Below are positions 8,994-17,772 of a stretch of 64,000 nucleotides of DNA, one piece after another. Within the stretch, counting starts at the first letter, position 1. The number at the start of each line of letters is the position of its first letter. The stretch covers positions 62,001-126,000 of the forward strand of contig NZ_OBQC01000011.1 of the NCBI RefSeq assembly GCF_900220965.1. The letters run 5' to 3'. Under the pieces are notes generated by a model. It saw only the letters and a program-made list of their open reading frames with translations. It was not told where the DNA came from and did not search any database. The DNA is from Ureibacillus acetophenoni. GTDB lineage: Bacteria > Bacillota > Bacilli > Bacillales_A > Planococcaceae. Made by a program: the position numbers and the translations under genes.

Positions 8994-9536
8994 TTAAGAG
9001 ATTGAGGCATTTCTCTTAAATTGTTGAGTATAATTTGTTTTTTCCATTAAAGCTTTTTCTTCAATAGGAATTCTTACGGATAACATTGCGAAGTTTAATA
9101 TAGTAAATACTATTGCCGTGAAATATGCTTCAAACATTAATGGTAAAAGAACTATTTCAGTACATACAACAACATAGTTGGGATGTCGGAAAAATTTATA
9201 TGGACCTTTCTTAACTACATTCGTGCCGGGTAATATAATGATCTTTGTATTCCAAAACTGTCCTAAAGAAGTTAAACACCAAATTCGAATACACTGGACA
9301 ATTATAAAGAAGGAGAAAAGAATTGGAAAAAGGACAGAGGTAGTAAGCTGGAAATACATAACTTCAAACATTAAACTTAAAAAGAAAAAGGTATGAAATG
9401 CAATCATATAAGGATAATGTTCTTTACCAACTTCATATGCACCTTTTGATAGCATGAGTGCTTCATTTCGTTTCGCAATAATTAATTCAATAATTCTTTG
9501 CACGATAACAAGAGTAATAATAATTAAAAAAATCAT
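8994..9536 (-). CDS. bpsB: Isoprenylcysteine carboxyl methyltransferase family protein, BpsB/YpbQ-like
   Basis: A 180-residue membrane protein with about four membrane helices. The conserved ICMT motif is seen as NTKIIILPGTNVVKKGPYKFFRHPNYVVV, quoted here as GPYKFFRHPNYVV, followed by an E of the second metal- or cofactor-side region. In B. subtilis the neighbour pair BpsA-BpsB makes alkylpyrones and methylates them, BpsB being the methyltransferase; the same gene order here implies the same reaction. ATG 9536 is chosen over 9551: a GGAGGG lies 7 nt upstream and the start overlaps the bpsA stop as ATGA. Confidence 0.82.
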   Translation of the reverse strand: MIFLIIITLVIVQRIIELIIAKRNEALMLSKGAYEVGKEHYPYMIAFHTFFFLSLMFEVMYFQLTTSVLFPILFSFFIIVQCIRIWCLTSLGQFWNTKIIILPGTNVVKKGPYKFFRHPNYVVVCTEIVLLPLMFEAYFTAIVFTILNFAMLSVRIPIEEKALMEKTNYTQQFKRNASIS

Positions 9537-10621
9537 CCCAAATCCCTCCATTGAAGTAAAACTGTTTCGCCACTAAATCCAGGCCCAAGTGCAACCATTA
9601 AGCCGTAATCATCTACACTACAATCATTTAACATATATTGTTCAAGTACATAAAGTACAGTTGGAGAAGACATATTACCGTGTAATCTTAAAACCTCTCT
9701 TGAAATTAAAGTGTCATCAGTAGTTAGATTTAAAGCGTCTTCATATGCTTTTAATACTTTTTTACCTCCAGGATGTGCAATAAAGTGGTTAATATCTTTT
9801 TGTGAAACTCCATTTTCTAGTAAAAAATCATGAATAAAGGGACCGAGCCACTTAGTTATTATAGAAGGGATATCTTTTGAGAATATAACGTGAAAACCAT
9901 CATTTTTAATATCCCAGCCCATTACGTCTAGAGAATCAGGCATCCAGTTAGATGCAGTATTTAATATAGAAGGAATCGGTTTTTTCGTTTGAATATTCAC
10001 TTCGTCTCCACATACTAAGGCGCAAGCAACTCCATCTGCAAATAATGAAGCTCCGACTAGGTTACTTTTGGAGTAATCATTTTTTTGGAATGTTAAACTA
10101 CATAATTCTACACATACGACGAGGACCTTCTCCTTTGGGTGTGCACGACAGTAGTCAAAGGCTCTACTAATACCTGAAGCCCCTCCTGCACAGCCAAGCC
10201 CCCAAATGGGGATCCTTTTAACTCGATTAGAAAAGTTCATTAAATTTAATACATGTGCATCAATACTAGGTGTAGAAATTCCTGAACTACTTACAAAAAA
10301 TATTGCGTTCACATCTTCAGGCGAAATGGGTTTTTTAAGAAAGTTAAGGTTTCCAAGACACTTTTTTATCACCTCGACGCTATATTTAGTAGCAAGTTCA
10401 ATATACAAATCGTTGCGTTCTTCAAATGTATGCTCTTGTTTATACCATTCTACAGGTACACAAAATTGTCGTGATTGAATCTCACCATTTTCAAATACTT
10501 TAAGTAATCTGTCGAGCTGTTGAAATTTATCTTGAAAGAGCTCTCTAGTTAATAGTTCTAAGTTGGATTGTTCCATAGAATATGGTGGCTGGTATGTACT
10601 CACTGATACGATTTTAGGCAC
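9533..10621 (-). CDS. bpsA: Type III polyketide synthase (alkylpyrone synthase)
   Basis: A 362-residue chalcone/stilbene synthase-like enzyme that condenses a fatty acyl-CoA with malonyl-CoA to give alkylpyrones or alkylresorcinols. The catalytic triad is visible: Cys in WGLGCAGG (residue 144), His in FIAHPGGKK (283) and Asn in LHGNMSSPT (316). The GPGFSGE motif near the C-terminus completes the active site. Length equals that of B. subtilis BpsA (BcsA). GTG 10621 is the likely start, 9 nt after AAAGGGG; a TTG at 10630 directly abuts that site. It is translationally coupled to the downstream methyltransferase. Confidence 0.9.
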   Translation of the reverse strand: MPKIVSVSTYQPPYSMEQSNLELLTRELFQDKFQQLDRLLKVFENGEIQSRQFCVPVEWYKQEHTFEERNDLYIELATKYSVEVIKKCLGNLNFLKKPISPEDVNAIFFVSSSGISTPSIDAHVLNLMNFSNRVKRIPIWGLGCAGGASGISRAFDYCRAHPKEKVLVVCVELCSLTFQKNDYSKSNLVGASLFADGVACALVCGDEVNIQTKKPIPSILNTASNWMPDSLDVMGWDIKNDGFHVIFSKDIPSIITKWLGPFIHDFLLENGVSQKDINHFIAHPGGKKVLKAYEDALNLTTDDTLISREVLRLHGNMSSPTVLYVLEQYMLNDCSVDDYGLMVALGPGFSGETVLLQWRDLG

Positions 10622-10641
10622 AATAAACAACCCCTTTCTTC

Positions 10642-11498: not shown

Positions 11499-12254
11499 TT
11501 ACTCAGTAAAAGTGTAAATTGCTTCTTTTAAGAACTCAGTAGCGCCGTCTCCACATTTTTCGTAGTAAGCTTTAAAGCGTTCATCGGCTACATACATATC
11601 TGCAAGGCCTCTATGCGCTTCCTTTGAATAAGAAGGCCAAGTAAACGTTAGCCACTGTTTATGTTTTAAAGCTACTTCTTGTGCAATTGTAGATGTGGGA
11701 TCGCCAGTTTCTAGAGCCTTTGTTAGAAGTTCTAAAACTTCTTCTCCTAACTTTACCATTACATCATATTTTTCTTGGGACATATTTTTGAATATTTTGT
11801 TCGACTCTTCAACTGTTTTCTCACCGTATTTTTCTCGAATTTCCTCACCATATTTTTCTTCATTCTCAGAAATTAACTTATCTTTAAATGCCTCGAATTT
11901 TTGCTCATTTGACATAAGAATTTCTCCTTTCTCGTGGGCGATGGTATTCTCCACCGTACTAATTAATTTTTCCAGTCGGGATTTTTTTTCTTCAAGTTTA
12001 CTTAAATGTGTTTGTAATGCTTTTGTTTTATCGAATTCAGGATTGTTCATAATAGAAATAATAGTGTCTAATTCAACATCAAGCTCTCTAAAAAACAATA
12101 TTTGTTGAAGTCGATCAACTTCTATTTGTCCATAGATTCTGTATCCTGAACTATTAATTCTTGCTGGTTTGAGTAGGTTGATTTCATCATAATAGCGTAA
12201 TGTTCGCGCGCTAACATTTGCTAATTTGGCAAGCTTGCTAATTGTATATTCCAT
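11499..12254 (-). CDS. MerR family regulator with TipAS drug-binding domain (Mta-like)
   Basis: A 251-residue transcription activator. Residues 1-70 are a MerR winged helix (YTISKLAKLANVSARTLRYYDE, quoted in part), residues about 75-120 a coiled-coil dimerisation helix, and residues about 125-250 a TipAS domain (KYGEKTVEES, then HRGLADMYVADERFKAYYEK), which in TipA and Mta binds hydrophobic antibiotics. ATG 12254 is chosen because an AGGAGGGA site precedes it; nine extra codons upstream have none. A TTGACC-19 bp-TATGAT promoter just upstream has the long spacer that MerR proteins act on, so autoactivation is likely. No drug exporter is adjacent, so the target beyond itself is unknown. Confidence 0.87.
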   Translation of the reverse strand: MEYTISKLAKLANVSARTLRYYDEINLLKPARINSSGYRIYGQIEVDRLQQILFFRELDVELDTIISIMNNPEFDKTKALQTHLSKLEEKKSRLEKLISTVENTIAHEKGEILMSNEQKFEAFKDKLISENEEKYGEEIREKYGEKTVEESNKIFKNMSQEKYDVMVKLGEEVLELLTKALETGDPTSTIAQEVALKHKQWLTFTWPSYSKEAHRGLADMYVADERFKAYYEKCGDGATEFLKEAIYTFTE

Positions 12255-12276
12255 GTTTAATCCCTCCTGTATTTCA

Positions 12277-12307
12277 ATCATATAGGTTAACGTAACGTGA
12301 AGGTCAA
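12277..12307 (-). promoter_or_regulatory. MerR-type promoter with 19-bp spacer
   Basis: On the minus strand TTGACC (12302-12307) and TATGAT (12277-12282) are separated by exactly 19 bp. The spacer holds an imperfect inverted repeat centred on ACGT..ACGT. Such over-long spacers are the hallmark of promoters twisted into activity by MerR family proteins. The start point would fall just before the ribosome binding site at 12261-12268. Confidence 0.7.
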
Positions 12308-12443: not shown

Positions 12444-13076
12444 ATGGAGCAAAAAAAGGTACAAGTTAGACAGCCGAAATATGCAAAGATTGCAGCTGAT
12501 ATTGCATCAAAGATTGTAGAAAAAAAATATGTTGTTGGTGAAAAAATTTATGCTAGATCTTCTCTAGCAAGCCAATATGGTGTTTCATCCGAAACAGCTA
12601 GAAGGGCAATTGCGGTCTTACAAGACTTGGAAATTGTAGAGGCAACAAAAGGTAGTGGGGTTATGATAAAATCCTACGAAAAGGCAGCTCAATTTGTTCA
12701 ACAATTTCTAGATGTACAATCAGTCCATCAAATTCAGTTAGAAGTGTTAGAAAGTTTGAAACGCCAAAGAGAGGAACTAAACTATTTACAGGAGATTACT
12801 GACCGATTAGTTAATCGAACTGAAAGATTTAGGTCCGTAAATCCCTTTGTCCCTTTTCAAATCGAAGTTTTAGAACAATCACCATATATTTTTCGTTCAA
12901 TTGGAGAAATCAACTTTTGGCAAAATACATCAGCTACAATCGTGGGTATAAAAAGAGGGCAAGACTTATTTGTATCACCTGGACCGTATATTACAATTGA
13001 ACCAAATGACATTATTTATTTCATAGGAAATGACGAAAGTTTAGAACGTGTTGAGAAATTTTTATATTCATATTAG
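12444..13076 (+). CDS. GntR family regulator with C-terminal RCK_C (TrkA_C) domain, BusR-like
   Basis: A 210-residue DNA-binding protein. Residues about 12-76 form a GntR winged helix (LASQYGVSSETARRAIAVLQ), residues about 88-125 a coiled coil, and residues about 136-210 an RCK_C domain (FVSPGPYITIEPNDIIYFIG). This architecture is that of BusR, which in streptococci and lactococci binds c-di-AMP through RCK_C and represses the glycine betaine transporter BusA/OpuA. The gene sits directly upstream of opuAA-opuAB-opuAC, separated by its own terminator and the opuA promoter, which strongly suggests it controls that operon. Start ATG 12444 follows GAGG by 9 nt. Confidence 0.85.
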   Translation: MEQKKVQVRQPKYAKIAADIASKIVEKKYVVGEKIYARSSLASQYGVSSETARRAIAVLQDLEIVEATKGSGVMIKSYEKAAQFVQQFLDVQSVHQIQLEVLESLKRQREELNYLQEITDRLVNRTERFRSVNPFVPFQIEVLEQSPYIFRSIGEINFWQNTSATIVGIKRGQDLFVSPGPYITIEPNDIIYFIGNDESLERVEKFLYSY

Positions 13077-13078
13077 TG

Positions 13079-13120
13079 GGTCTGCGGATACTTTATATAA
13101 AGGTATTCGTAGACCTTTTT
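13079..13120 (+). terminator. Terminator of the BusR-like gene
   Basis: A 13-bp stem with G-U pairs (13079-13091 with 13103-13115) is followed by TTTTT. Confidence 0.75.
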
Positions 13121-13156
13121 CTATTGTTTTGTAAGGTAGTTTACAAGATTGGAAGA

Positions 13157-13196
13157 TTGACACAAGTAACAACTCTTTGTTAACATTAGGTTGTCA
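13157..13196 (+). promoter_or_regulatory. opuA promoter with overlapping inverted repeats (candidate BusR operator)
   Basis: TTGACA (13157-13162) and TAACAT (13181-13186, with TG at 13178-13179) are separated by 18 bp. A perfect inverted repeat TAACAA-CTCT-TTGTTA (13167-13182) fills the spacer, and TGACA (13158-13162) faces TGTCA (13192-13196). Such placement suits a repressor. The link to the BusR-like protein is inference from position. Confidence 0.5.
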
Positions 13197-13244
13197 CTTA
13201 GATAATTGGGAAATACTTACTAATTGGATGGAGAGGAGAATGAT

Positions 13245-14459
13245 ATGGATAAGATAAAGATTGAAAATGTGTCTAAAATATTTGGTAGCGGTAGGCATAT
13301 TAATCAAGCATTAAAGCTAGTCGAGCAGAATAAAAGCAAGACTGAAATATTGAAACAAACGGGTGCAACAATTGGTGTATACAATGCCAATTTTACCGTT
13401 AAAGAAGGCGAAGTCTTTGTTATTATGGGACTTTCAGGTAGTGGTAAATCTACATTAGTTCGTTTATTAAACCGCCTCATTGAACCCACGAGTGGAAACA
13501 TCTATATAGATGGCGAAAATATCTCCAAAATGAACAAACAACAGCTCATTAAAGTCCGTAGGGAGAAAATGAGTATGGTGTTTCAAAACTTCGGCTTATT
13601 CCCACAAAGAACTGTACTAGCAAATACAGAATATGGTTTAGAAATTCGCGGAATTTCAAAAGAAGAAAGACGATTGAAAGCAGAAAAGGCTTTAGATAAT
13701 GCGGGGTTATTACCATATAAAGACCAATATCCAAGCCAATTATCAGGTGGTATGCAACAACGTGTTGGCTTAGCAAGAGCATTAGCAAATGACCCTGACA
13801 TCCTGCTAATGGATGAAGCTTTTTCTGCGCTCGATCCTTTAATCCGTAAAGATATGCAAGACGAGTTACTCGATTTGCAACAAAAAATGAAAAAGACAAT
13901 TATCTTTATTACACATGACTTAAATGAGGCGTTACGTATTGGTGACCGGATTGCGTTAATGAAAGATGGCGAAATTATTCAAATTGGTACAGGGGAAGAA
14001 ATATTAACGAACCCTGCTAACGATTATGTTAGATCATTCTTGGAAGATGTTGACCGTTCGAAAGTTCTAACAGTTGAAAATGCAATGATTCGTCCGATTT
14101 CAATAAATATTGATATTGATGGCCCTAAAGTGGCTCTACAAACAATGCGAGAAGAGGAAGTAAGTGTAGTTCTTGCTGTCAATAAAATGAGAGAGTTTAA
14201 AGGTTATATAACTGCAGATGATGCATTAGAAGCTTCAAAACGTGGTGAAAGTAATCTATCAAACTATTTAAGAACAGATATGCCAACTGTTCAGCCAGAT
14301 ACGTTCATTCAAGATGTGCTAAGTGTAATTTCTGATTCGAAAACACCACTAGCAGTCGTACGTGAACAAAAATTAGTTGGCGTTTTAATTAGAGGCGTTG
14401 TTATTGAAACCCTCTCTACAAGTAATGAGGGGGTGACAGAACATGAGTCAGTTTCTTGA
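13245..14459 (+). CDS. opuAA: Glycine betaine ABC transporter ATPase OpuAA
   Basis: A 404-residue ATPase of the osmoprotectant importer OpuA. Walker A is GLSGSGKST, the signature [15 protein letters not shown], Walker [14 protein letters not shown]. The N-terminal extension before the ABC domain ([24 protein letters not shown], quoted in part as [13 protein letters not shown]) is specific to the OpuA/ProV group. Residues about 280-400 form two CBS motifs, used in relatives to sense ionic strength or c-di-AMP. ATG 13245 is chosen for its AGGAG 6 nt upstream. The 3' end overlaps opuAB by 17 nt. Confidence 0.94.
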
Positions 14460-15294
14460 TTTTGTACCGACTATTCCTATAGCTAAATCTGTCGAATGGT
14501 TCATGGATCTGTTAACAAGTAACCTTGCACCTCTTTTTGATTCGATTCAAAAAGGCGGAAAATATGCAATGGAATCTGTTACAGATTTACTAATTTTAAT
14601 ACCCCCAATTCTTTTTATATTAATAATAGGGGTAATCGCATTTTTCGCTACAAAAAGGAAGTTTGGTTTAGCAGTATTTTCAATCGTTGGTCTATTTTTA
14701 ATTTATAACCAAGGACTTTGGGAAGAACTAATGAACACAATCACTCTTGTTATATTTGCGAGTTTGATTGCAATTATTATTGGTGTTCCTTTAGGAATAT
14801 TAATGTCAAAAAACTCAGTTGCAGAAGCAATTATTAAGCCAGTATTAGACTTTATGCAAACAATGCCTGGTTTTGTTTACTTAATACCAGCAGTTGCATT
14901 CTTCGGAATAGGTGTAGTTCCAGGTGTATTTGCCTCAGTTATTTTCGCTCTTCCACCAACAGTTCGCTTTACAAATTTAGGTATTAGACAAGTGCCGAAA
15001 GAATTAGTAGAAGCATCTGAATCATATGGAAGTACGGGTTGGCAAAAGCTCACTAAGGTTGAATTGCCTCTAGCAAAATCTACAATAATGGCGGGTATTA
15101 ACCAAACTGTATTACTATCATTATCAATGGTTGTAATAGCATCTATGATTGGTGCGCCAGGATTAGGAAGAGATGTATTATCTGCATTACAAAGAGCTCA
15201 AGTTGGTAATGGCTTTGTAGCCGGTATCAGTTTAGTAATATTGGCTATTATATTTGACCGTTTAACTCAAAGTTTCAATAAAAAGAAACAATAG
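14443..15294 (+). CDS. opuAB: Glycine betaine ABC transporter permease OpuAB
   Basis: A 283-residue membrane protein, the same length as B. subtilis OpuAB. It has an N-terminal amphipathic region ([18 protein letters not shown]), then about seven membrane helices with the BPD_transp_1 core. The EAA loop ([23 protein letters not shown], quoted as [15 protein letters not shown]) lies near residue 195. It forms the translocation pore as a homodimer with OpuAA. Translation is coupled to opuAA by the overlap. It ends 82 nt before the first opuAC; no terminator is seen between them. Confidence 0.94.
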
Positions 15295-15376
15295 AATGTG
15301 AAATTTTAATGTAATTAAAAATTCAAATGAGTAGTCTTTACCGAGGCTGTTTGTTTAGACAAAGGGAGACGAAAAA

Positions 15377-16294
15377 ATGAAGAGTTTAAAGAAGAAGTTA
15401 GGAATAACTGCAATATTATCCTTTACTCTACTATTAGCCGCGTGTGGCAGTAGTGAAGAAGGTTCAAATGGAAGTGGGCAAGAAACAGCATCAGATAGTT
15501 TAGGTGAAGCATTAGATTATACAATTACTGGTATTGAACCGGGAGCAGGTATAACTCAACTAACACTAAATACTTTAGAAGAATATGAAAACTTAGAAGG
15601 TTGGACACTTCTAGAAAGTTCAACTGCAGGGATGATTGGTGCTTTAGATCAAGCTATTAAAAATGAGGAGCCGATTATCGTAACAGGTTGGAATCCACAC
15701 TGGAAGTTCTCTGCATACGATTTGAAATACTTGGAAGACCCTAAAGGAACATTAGGTGGGGCTGAAGATATTAATACAATTACAAGAAAAGGTTTGGAAG
15801 AAGACATGCCTGAAGCTTATACAATTCTCGATCGTTTCTACTGGGAACCAGAAGATATGGAGGCTGTAATGTATGCTGCTCAAGAAATACCTTTTGAAGA
15901 GGCTGCCCAAAATTGGATTGACGAAAATGCTGATAAAGTAAGCGAATGGACAGAAGGTGTAGAGAAGGTAGATGGAGTAGATATTGAACTAGTTATCACA
16001 CCTTGGGATACAGAACGTGCTTCTGGCCAAGTGATGAAAATTGTATTAGAACAACAAGGTTACAATGTAACTCTAACTCCAGTTGACCCAGCAATTATGT
16101 TCCAAGCAATCGCCACAGCTGAAGGCGATGCAAGTGTTGCACCGTGGTTGCCAAATACACATGGTTCTTTCTATGAAAAATATAAAGAAGATATTGTCGA
16201 TTTAGGTCCAAACTTAACAGGTACAAAAACAGGATTAGTTGTTCCTGCATACATGGACATTGATTCCATTGAGGACTTAATGCCGAAAAAATAA
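15377..16294 (+). CDS. opuAC: Glycine betaine-binding lipoprotein OpuAC, lobe order as in B. subtilis
   Basis: A 305-residue lipoprotein; the lipobox LAAC places the acylated cysteine at residue 23. The first half (residues about 46-195) starts YTITGIEPGAG and carries GWNPHW with W105; the second half (about 202-300) carries ITPWDTE with W210 and APWLPNTH with W257 and H262. These correspond to the aromatic cage and the histidine that hold the trimethylammonium and carboxylate of glycine betaine in OpuAC. The lobe order is that of B. subtilis OpuAC. A second binding protein with the reverse order follows. Start ATG 15377 after AAAGGGAG. Confidence 0.93.
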   Translation: MKSLKKKLGITAILSFTLLLAACGSSEEGSNGSGQETASDSLGEALDYTITGIEPGAGITQLTLNTLEEYENLEGWTLLESSTAGMIGALDQAIKNEEPIIVTGWNPHWKFSAYDLKYLEDPKGTLGGAEDINTITRKGLEEDMPEAYTILDRFYWEPEDMEAVMYAAQEIPFEEAAQNWIDENADKVSEWTEGVEKVDGVDIELVITPWDTERASGQVMKIVLEQQGYNVTLTPVDPAIMFQAIATAEGDASVAPWLPNTHGSFYEKYKEDIVDLGPNLTGTKTGLVVPAYMDIDSIEDLMPKK

Positions 16295-16372
16295 TTATTA
16301 TACTTTTGGTTTATACAAAATTAATACTTTTGTTTAAATATTAAAAGTTTGGGTGAAAGGGAGATAAATAGC

Positions 16373-17266
16373 ATGAAATTCAAAAAACTAAAGATGCTAG
16401 GTTTAACGCTTGGTTTAGGAGCGATGTTAGCTGCATGTGGATCAGATGATAGTACAACAACCAATAATGAAGAATCAAAAGCTGATACTGGATCAAAAGC
16501 GGTTAATTTAGCGTATGTAGAATGGGATAGTGAAATTGCATCAACACATGTTGTAGGAAAAGTTTTAGAAGACTTAGGTTATGATGTTACACTAACTCCT
16601 TTAGATAATGCAATTATGTGGGAAGCAGTATCAACTGGAGAAGCAGATGCAATGGTAGCTGGATGGTTACCAGGAACTCATGCCGCACAATATGAAAGAT
16701 ATAAAGATGGTTTAGTAGAATTAGGAGAAAACCTATCAGGTGCTAAAATTGGATTAGTTGTTCCAACTTATATGGAAGCTAATTCTATCGCTGACTTATC
16801 AGGAGAAGCAGACATGAAAATTACAGGTATCGAAGCAGGTGCGGGAGTAATGGCTGCTACTGAAAATGCAATTGCGGAATATGCAAATTTAAATGGCTGG
16901 GAACTTGTACCTTCATCTTCTGGAGCAATGACAGTAGCTTTAGATCAGGCGATTAAAAGTGAAGAAGAAATTATTGTTACAGGCTGGTCACCACACTGGA
17001 AGTTTGCTGCATATGACTTGAAATATTTAGAGGATCCTCAAGGTGTTTATGGTGGGGAAGAAACTATTAACACATTTGCTCGTCAAGGCTTAGAAGAAGA
17101 TTTACCGGAAGCATTTAAAGTGATTGACGCCTTCCACTGGACGAGTGCAGATATGGAAGAGGTAATGCTTGATATTAATTCGGGAACGTCACCTGAAGAT
17201 GCTGCTGCTAAATGGGTTGAAGCTCACCCAGACAAAGTTGCTGAATGGACGAAAGATGTAGAGTAA
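16373..17266 (+). CDS. opuAC: Second glycine betaine-binding lipoprotein, lobe-swapped (circularly permuted) relative of OpuAC
   Basis: A 297-residue lipoprotein with lipobox LAAC, cysteine at residue 22. The lobes are in reverse order compared with the gene before it: residues about 43-140 (NLAYVEWDSEIAS, W51; AGWLPGTH, W98 and H103) equal the second half of the upstream protein, and residues about 148-297 (MKITGIEAGAG, then GWSPHW with W205) equal its first half. All cage residues are kept, so it should bind betaine or a related compound. ATG 16373 follows AAGGGAG by 9 nt. The gene closes the opuA operon before a strong terminator. Confidence 0.9.
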   Translation: MKFKKLKMLGLTLGLGAMLAACGSDDSTTTNNEESKADTGSKAVNLAYVEWDSEIASTHVVGKVLEDLGYDVTLTPLDNAIMWEAVSTGEADAMVAGWLPGTHAAQYERYKDGLVELGENLSGAKIGLVVPTYMEANSIADLSGEADMKITGIEAGAGVMAATENAIAEYANLNGWELVPSSSGAMTVALDQAIKSEEEIIVTGWSPHWKFAAYDLKYLEDPQGVYGGEETINTFARQGLEEDLPEAFKVIDAFHWTSADMEEVMLDINSGTSPEDAAAKWVEAHPDKVAEWTKDVE

Positions 17267-17285: not shown

Positions 17286-17325
17286 AAAAACCGATTTGTC
17301 ACTTAATTGTGACAAATCGGTTTTT
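17286..17325. terminator. Bidirectional terminator of the opuA operon
   Basis: A perfect 17-bp stem (17286-17302 with 17309-17325, loop TTAATT) carries A and T runs at both ends, serving opuA and the convergent gene at 17326. Confidence 0.9.
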
Positions 17326-17772
17326 TTATTTAGAAATATCATATCCAACAACTGACCATATTCCGGTTTCATCTTGTCGAATAAGTCTTTTTAAATAGAC
17401 CATATTAATATTCGTATCTGAATCGTCAACTTGAACAATTGCTGATTCGTTGTTGCTAGAGATTAGCTTTAAATTTTCATACTCAATAGGAAAATCTCCA
17501 ACTATACCTTCAGGAAATAAATGCAAACTGGTAAAAACTTGAGCTGTAAATAGTGGATCAAGTCTCCATGGGGAATGACCTTCATCCACACTTTTTTGAG
17601 TTTGTTTATCTAGTTCTAGGTCAACATTTACCTCAACTTGCGGTTTCAATTCATATTCACTAGCTTGAACTGGGAAAATAATATGTTCAAAACCTACAAC
17701 GGTCTCTAGTTCGAAAGTTAGCTCATTCGATTCAAGGTAAGCAGGGATAGAATATTCATTGATAATGTCCAT
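17326..17772 (-). CDS. Conserved hypothetical protein
   Basis: A 148-residue acidic protein without signal peptide or membrane helix. I do not recognise the family. It seems to be built mainly of beta strands, and its C-terminal MVYLKRLIRQDETGIWSVVGYDISK region (quoted in part) looks like the end of a compact alpha/beta fold. A GGAGG lies 7 nt before the ATG on the minus strand, which together with codon use supports a real gene. It is monocistronic and convergent with opuA. No function is proposed. Confidence 0.7.
   Translation of the reverse strand: MDIINEYSIPAYLESNELTFELETVVGFEHIIFPVQASEYELKPQVEVNVDLELDKQTQKSVDEGHSPWRLDPLFTAQVFTSLHLFPEGIVGDFPIEYENLKLISSNNESAIVQVDDSDTNINMVYLKRLIRQDETGIWSVVGYDISK

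Follow-up and report, generated by a model that had tools for sequence, protein, structure and literature searches.

In Bacillus subtilis, the betaine importer operon opuA is not known to be under the control of a neighbouring regulator of the BusR type. Most descriptions of BusR come from lactic acid bacteria (LAB), and it was noted in clostridia; in streptococci and lactococci it is a repressor that responds to the signal molecule cyclic di-adenosine monophosphate (c-di-AMP). BusR reads DNA by a ruler rule: the target is a pair of inverted half-sites at a distance of 22 bp, which is set by the length of the coiled coil (PMC8517857). We analysed a stretch of 64 kb, in the following called the window, from the 3.98-Mb genome of Ureibacillus acetophenoni (Bacillales), in which a gene for a BusR-like regulator precedes an opuA operon. 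The original prediction, made from the DNA letters, had proposed this regulator as a candidate for the control of opuA. Pocket residues, gene linkage and a predicted operator support the proposal, with the ligand and the sign of control coming from homology and the target and the site from comparative sequence analysis. Repression of the opuA operon by BusR bound to c-di-AMP is the most likely mechanism, to which we assign a probability of roughly 0.86.

Family and structure of the regulator

By its sequence relationships, the open reading frame (ORF) at 12444-13076 is a BusR ortholog. The architecture of GntR helix-turn-helix, coiled coil and RCK_C domain, initially read from the translation, was borne out by Pfam, an AlphaFold model, Foldseek and a full-length phmmer match. 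Pfam assigned in the 210 residues a GntR domain (residues 13-75, E 5e-10) and a TrkA_C/RCK_C domain (residues 139-207, E 4e-15). The protein aligned without gaps to BusR of Streptococcus mutans (7wjg, E 2e-43) and, gapless and end to end, to BusR of Streptococcus agalactiae (7b5t, E 2e-40, about 37 % identity); because this alignment is ungapped, the coiled coil has the same length as in S. agalactiae BusR. The AlphaFold model, calculated with 27 related sequences as input (mean predicted local distance difference test 82, predicted template modelling (TM) score 0.41), comprises a winged helix-turn-helix (wHTH) at residues 12-75, a single helix of 55 residues (78-132) and an RCK_C fold (136-208). 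Its domain orientation is uncertain and the overall TM-scores are low; the top 16 Foldseek matches were all BusR, with PDB entries 7b5t, 7wjg, 7b5y and 7oz3 as the best, and the RCK_C domain differed by 1.5-1.7 Å from that of c-di-AMP-bound 7b5u. The nearest named relative, as judged by the regulator protein, is Ureibacillus manganicus (89 % identity). In a phylogenetic tree, BusR of Planococcaceae and Clostridia were sister groups (support 99/97), their joint clade was sister to LAB BusR, and Paenibacillus-type proteins stood outside. A clostridial origin of the Planococcaceae BusR by nesting was not supported, as the tree places the two as sisters.

A predicted operator over the opuA promoter

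Inverted half-sites 22 bp apart, as in the busA/opuA promoters controlled by BusR, were found in front of opuA. The sequence AAGTAAC-N22-GTCACTT at 13164-13199 has one mismatch to the perfect inverted repeat AAGTGAC-N22-GTCACTT, and it is the only place in the genome with at most one mismatch. A search with the published short motif GAC-N22-GTC stayed at chance level in the window (2 sites found, 4.7 expected) and missed the real site because one half-site reads AAC; the longer AAGTGAC form located it. Among the promoter-like sites of the region, the one with TTGACA at 13157 ranks highest (10/12). The predicted operator begins right after this -35 box and extends across the spacer and the -10 box to the probable start site of opuA. 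It is an addition to the original prediction, whose suggested gel-shift fragment, 13140-13200, does include it.

All 67 loci checked in the family Planococcaceae have the operator with its half-sites spaced identically; its extended form is AAGTRACAAC-N16-RTTGTYACTT. For a spacer of 22, the best sites of these loci average 2.15 mismatches, compared with 4.3-5.9 at nearly every other spacing between 14 and 33. A spacer of 31 (mean 3.33 mismatches, 67 loci) was set aside; there, the -35 TTGACA pairs with the downstream half-site. TTGACA beside the operator is kept in most relatives, and the operator was also retained where the neighbouring TTGACA was lost (loci L056-L059 and L065), thus it is not conserved merely as part of a promoter.

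Linkage and co-occurrence in the Planococcaceae

A BusR ortholog is present in 88 of 250 family genomes, belonging to 8 of 19 genera. In each of the 67 orthologous BusR loci inspected, busR is followed directly by opuAA in the same orientation. Of 151 genomes sampled, 63 encode an OpuAB with at least 68 % identity to that of the window, and these are exactly the 63 with BusR. The neighbourhood survey called for at the outset therefore found the regulator tied to opuA, in every locus and, by type of OpuA, in 63 of 63 genomes. Nine more genomes of the sample (genera g8 and g9) have an OpuAB of 63-67 % identity without BusR; an exact motif search found no operator in these nine, six of which were inspected. 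Of the 88 BusR-positive genomes, 74 have the exact extended motif on both strands, compared with 0 of the 162 BusR-negative ones, and a control pattern, the motif read backwards, had no match in the 250 genomes. Two BusR-negative genomes (G002, G017) gave exact matches on a single strand; these lack the inverted-repeat form and were regarded as chance.

It could be argued that 13164-13199 is a chance inverted repeat in a promoter and that the regulator has its target elsewhere, as the pattern is no commoner in the genome than the control once three mismatches are allowed. The uniqueness at one mismatch or fewer, the spacing kept in 67 loci, the lack of control matches and the position of the further copies (see below) already contradict this explanation, which we regard as extremely improbable. 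Sequence comparison thus shows the family of the regulator, an operator of fixed spacing placed in the promoter, and the exclusive co-occurrence of this operator with BusR.

A tree-based view derives the opuA of Lysinibacillus from Lactobacillales (PMC7284689). This view fits a BusR-OpuA cassette that is alien to the remaining members of the family. BusR, however, groups with clostridial rather than LAB BusR, so the histories of the regulator and the importer may differ. No publication describing BusR in Lysinibacillus or Ureibacillus was found in the literature covered, which did not extend to subscription papers.

The c-di-AMP pocket and the proposed mechanism

For S. agalactiae BusR, PMC8517857 lists the residues that contact c-di-AMP. 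Comparing them, as the original prediction had advised, revealed a mostly kept pocket: 9 of the 11 listed positions are identical (I153, G154, N157, W159, A164, T165, I166, G180 and P181), and two differ (V158F, H160Q). W159, T165, G180 and P181 are present in all 67 family members and N157 in 63; residue 164 is small (A/S/G/C) in all 67 relatives. The genome contains two diadenylate cyclase genes.

Several observations weigh against repression by c-di-AMP-bound BusR. V158 is replaced by phenylalanine, and H160, in S. agalactiae BusR a contact to the phosphate of the ligand, by glutamine; the affinity could differ. Position 160 is Q in 57 of the 67 relatives and H in 10, while position 154 is highly variable across the family (G/Q/S/E). 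In vitro, BusR of Lactococcus lactis responds to ionic strength as well, thus c-di-AMP need not be the only signal (PMC10243994). On the DNA side, one half-site has AAC (AAGTAAC) instead of the published GAC; the other has GAC on the opposite strand (GTCACTT), and most relatives have AAC in both. As Q160 may also donate a hydrogen bond to the phosphate, c-di-AMP binding is likely, perhaps with altered strength. The same operator might control opuA while the RCK_C domain senses K+, ionic strength or another nucleotide, for which the changes at 158 and 160, the variability of 154 and the ionic-strength dependence of lactococcal BusR-DNA binding (PMC10243994) would speak. However, the specificity residues are conserved (A164 or another small residue, the I/V166 backbone, W159, T165, G180-P181), H160 is kept in 38 of 40 proteins of the clostridial sister group, and cyclase genes are present, which makes another ligand improbable.

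In the favoured mechanism, repression by c-di-AMP-bound BusR, a tetramer with a coiled-coil ruler of fixed length would bind the two inverted half-sites over the opuA promoter. At high c-di-AMP, with sufficient K+ and turgor, the nucleotide would occupy the RCK_C dimer and free the wHTH domains, BusR would bind and opuA would be repressed. After an osmotic up-shift c-di-AMP would fall, BusR would leave, and the importer and two binding proteins would be made. For the Ureibacillus protein, we infer the tetramer, c-di-AMP as ligand and its binding, repression as the sign of control and the osmotic stimulus and response by homology to the described BusR proteins. A role of BusR as activator or minor regulator, with opuA controlled mainly by other means as in B. 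subtilis, would agree with the good -35 and the poor -10 box (TAACAT). It is nevertheless very unlikely: an operator over the spacer, -10 box and start region has the position of a repressor site, as pAB2 in S. agalactiae (PMC8517857), and family OpuA genes without BusR are also without the operator.

DNA recognition

Every planococcal and almost every clostridial member has Y36 and R54, the streptococcal BusR proteins instead K36 and K54. Exchange of K36 and K54 for alanine severely diminished the DNA binding of S. agalactiae BusR (PMC8517857). The operators of the Y36/R54 members, planococcal and clostridial, read GTAAC. Lactobacilli-like members, in whose genomes a survey of the Bacilli found BusR adjoining an OpuA-type ATPase gene, have H36/K54 and GTGAC operators, again with N22. 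This correlation leads to the hypothesis that residues 36 and 54 set the specificity for GTAAC or GTGAC, and it would provide a natural recognition-code pair for one ruler-type regulator: K36/K54 or H36/K54 with GTGAC, Y36/R54 with GTAAC.

Two more distant groups were observed. Paenibacillus-type BusR-like genes with an ETIR recognition helix (L235, L237) are followed by inverted repeats similar to ACTAACAA-N18-TTGTTAGT, which also have the 22-bp ruler spacing and represent a third possible half-site. Genus g7 has a second, distant GntR-RCK_C paralog (L060, L061, L062; 31-36 % identity), in L061 and L062 with a sirtuin-like gene and then cytochrome bd oxidase genes downstream (by eye); no BusR-type operator was found near the paralog in these two loci.

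A predicted regulon of unlinked binding-protein genes

Lysinibacillus (g14) and some other genomes have two or three operators each. Of the 26 further copies fetched, 25 immediately precede an opuAC-type gene unlinked to opuA, some of these genes with the lobe order of B. subtilis OpuAC and some with that of L. lactis OpuA. The sites were located by the DNA pattern alone and thus bear out an independent prediction; many Lysinibacillus sites are inherited copies of few ancestral ones. The motif predicts a regulon with members unlinked to opuA. In the genome of the window, no operator was found at the two orphan tandem binding-protein genes (C35:14339-16111; L127), which have the B. subtilis lobe order, therefore opuA is the only predicted BusR target in this species. 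On balance we favour the view that Planococcaceae and Clostridia share their own BusR clade and operator code, Y36/R54 reading AGTAACAAC-N16-GTTGTTACT, and that Lysinibacillus, Solibacillus and some Ureibacillus possess a scattered regulon of opuA and unlinked binding-protein genes of both lobe orders. If so, c-di-AMP would set the amount of importer and also which binding proteins feed it. One exact operator of genus g7 (L117:4001-4034) is away from any opuAC gene; it overlaps the 5' end of an ORF for a small membrane protein, downstream of which lies a bile-acid-symporter-like gene.

The importer genes and the layout of the locus

All parts of an OpuA importer are present: ATPase with CBS domains, permease and betaine-binding protein (Table 1). 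The L. lactis OpuA ATPase, to which OpuAA can be aligned from end to end, binds c-di-AMP through its CBS domains (PMC10243994), and a response of OpuAA activity to c-di-AMP through such domains is plausible. The ionic-strength sensor residues Lys16, Arg17 and Lys19 of the lactococcal ATPase (PMC10243994) align with R, H and N here (13281-13310, OpuAA residues about 13-22), thus ionic-strength gating may differ from L. lactis. The original reading had placed the regulator directly upstream of opuAA-opuAB-opuAC; the order on the same strand was confirmed, but there are two opuAC-type genes instead of one. The first product is collinear with B. subtilis OpuAC (2b4l) and matches 3l6g in two swapped pieces, the second is collinear with the L. 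lactis OpuA domain (3l6g/7ahc) and swapped against 2b4l, hence the two neighbours in one operon have opposite lobe orders and are mutual circular permutants. Glycine-betaine-binding proteins were already known to include circular permutants (PMC2395249); the local oddity, by sequence comparison, is the presence of both orders in one operon, common to several genomes of the same genus.

Table 1. Coordinates of the busR-opuA features in the window
Feature	Position	Strand	Basis
busR; GntR wHTH, 55-residue coiled-coil helix, RCK_C; 210 residues	12444..13076	+	ORF list, Pfam, phmmer, AlphaFold model, Foldseek
Intrinsic-terminator-like hairpin after busR, 17 pairs and T tail	13078..13116	+	Terminator/promoter scan
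opuA promoter; TTGACA 13157-13162, 18-bp spacer, TAACAT 13181-13186	13157..13186	+	Scan, 10/12
Predicted BusR operator AAGTAACAAC-N16-GTTGTCACTT; half-sites AAGTAAC / GTCACTT, 22 bp apart	13164..13199	+	Pattern search, family comparison
opuAA; ATPase with CBS domains, start ATG 13245	13245..14459	+	L. lactis OpuA ATPase 7ahc_D, E 2e-165
opuAB; permease	14443..15294	+	Sequence search
opuAC-1; betaine-binding lipoprotein, B. subtilis OpuAC lobe order	15377..16294	+	Collinear with 2b4l
opuAC-2; betaine-binding lipoprotein, L. lactis OpuA lobe order	16373..17266	+	Collinear with 3l6g/7ahc
Probable operon terminator ACCGATTTGTCAC-TTAATT-GTGACAAATCGGT and T run	17286..17326	+	Direct sequence reading; absent from terminator scan list

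The start of opuAA corrects the TTG at 13224 of the ORF list, and for opuAC-2 the ATG at 16373 is preferred over the listed TTG at 16349. As the hairpin stands between them, busR and opuA are probably two transcription units. The regulator gene adjoining opuA belongs by Pfam to the GntR-RCK_C and not to the MarR type. Farther upstream of busR, a MerR-like ORF (by eye) lies on the opposite strand (11499-12281). On the minus strand, 8994-10630 holds a bpsA-bpsB-like pair (by eye): a gene probably encoding a type III polyketide synthase and, after it, an isoprenylcysteine-methyltransferase-like gene.

Comparison with known systems

A repressor gene adjoining opuA is known in Bacillales from OpuAR of Bacillus infantis (PMC6207618), which is, however, a member of the unrelated GbsR/MarR family without an RCK_C domain. 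The BusR-like proteins of Clostridium, Anaerocolumna and Mobilisporobacter form the sister clade, share Y36/R54 and in many cases the AGTAACAAC-N16-GTTGTTACT operator, but the latter, where found, precedes mostly an OpuC/ProV-like operon (OpuAA identity about 37 %). With S. agalactiae BusR (7b5t, 7b5u, 7b5y, 7oz3) the Ureibacillus protein has in common the full-length homology, most pocket residues, the ruler length and a site overlapping promoter elements; it differs in the 37 % identity and in V158F and H160Q. The S. agalactiae busR gene is 655 kb away from busAB (PMC5919688), whereas busR adjoins opuA here, and the promoter there has two sites where we found one.

The sequence places BusR as the resident opuA regulator, with a defined operator, in one branch of the Bacillales. 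A related OpuA occurs without BusR in other genera of the family; genera with and without BusR offer a ready test for gain or loss of c-di-AMP control of betaine uptake. The osmotic control in this branch looks lactococcal rather than B. subtilis-like. As in L. lactis, the regulator gene is immediately upstream of the OpuA/BusA operon, the protein is of the GntR-coiled coil-RCK_C type and the half-sites are 22 bp apart (PMC8517857, PMC5919688). As judged from sequence, the locus is a BusR-OpuA system of the same kind as that of L. lactis, differing in the half-site, GTAAC (AAC) instead of GTGAC, in the recognition residues, Y36 and R54 instead of the K36 and K54 of the streptococcal helix-turn-helix, and in the binding-protein set, two separate genes instead of a permease-binding protein fusion.
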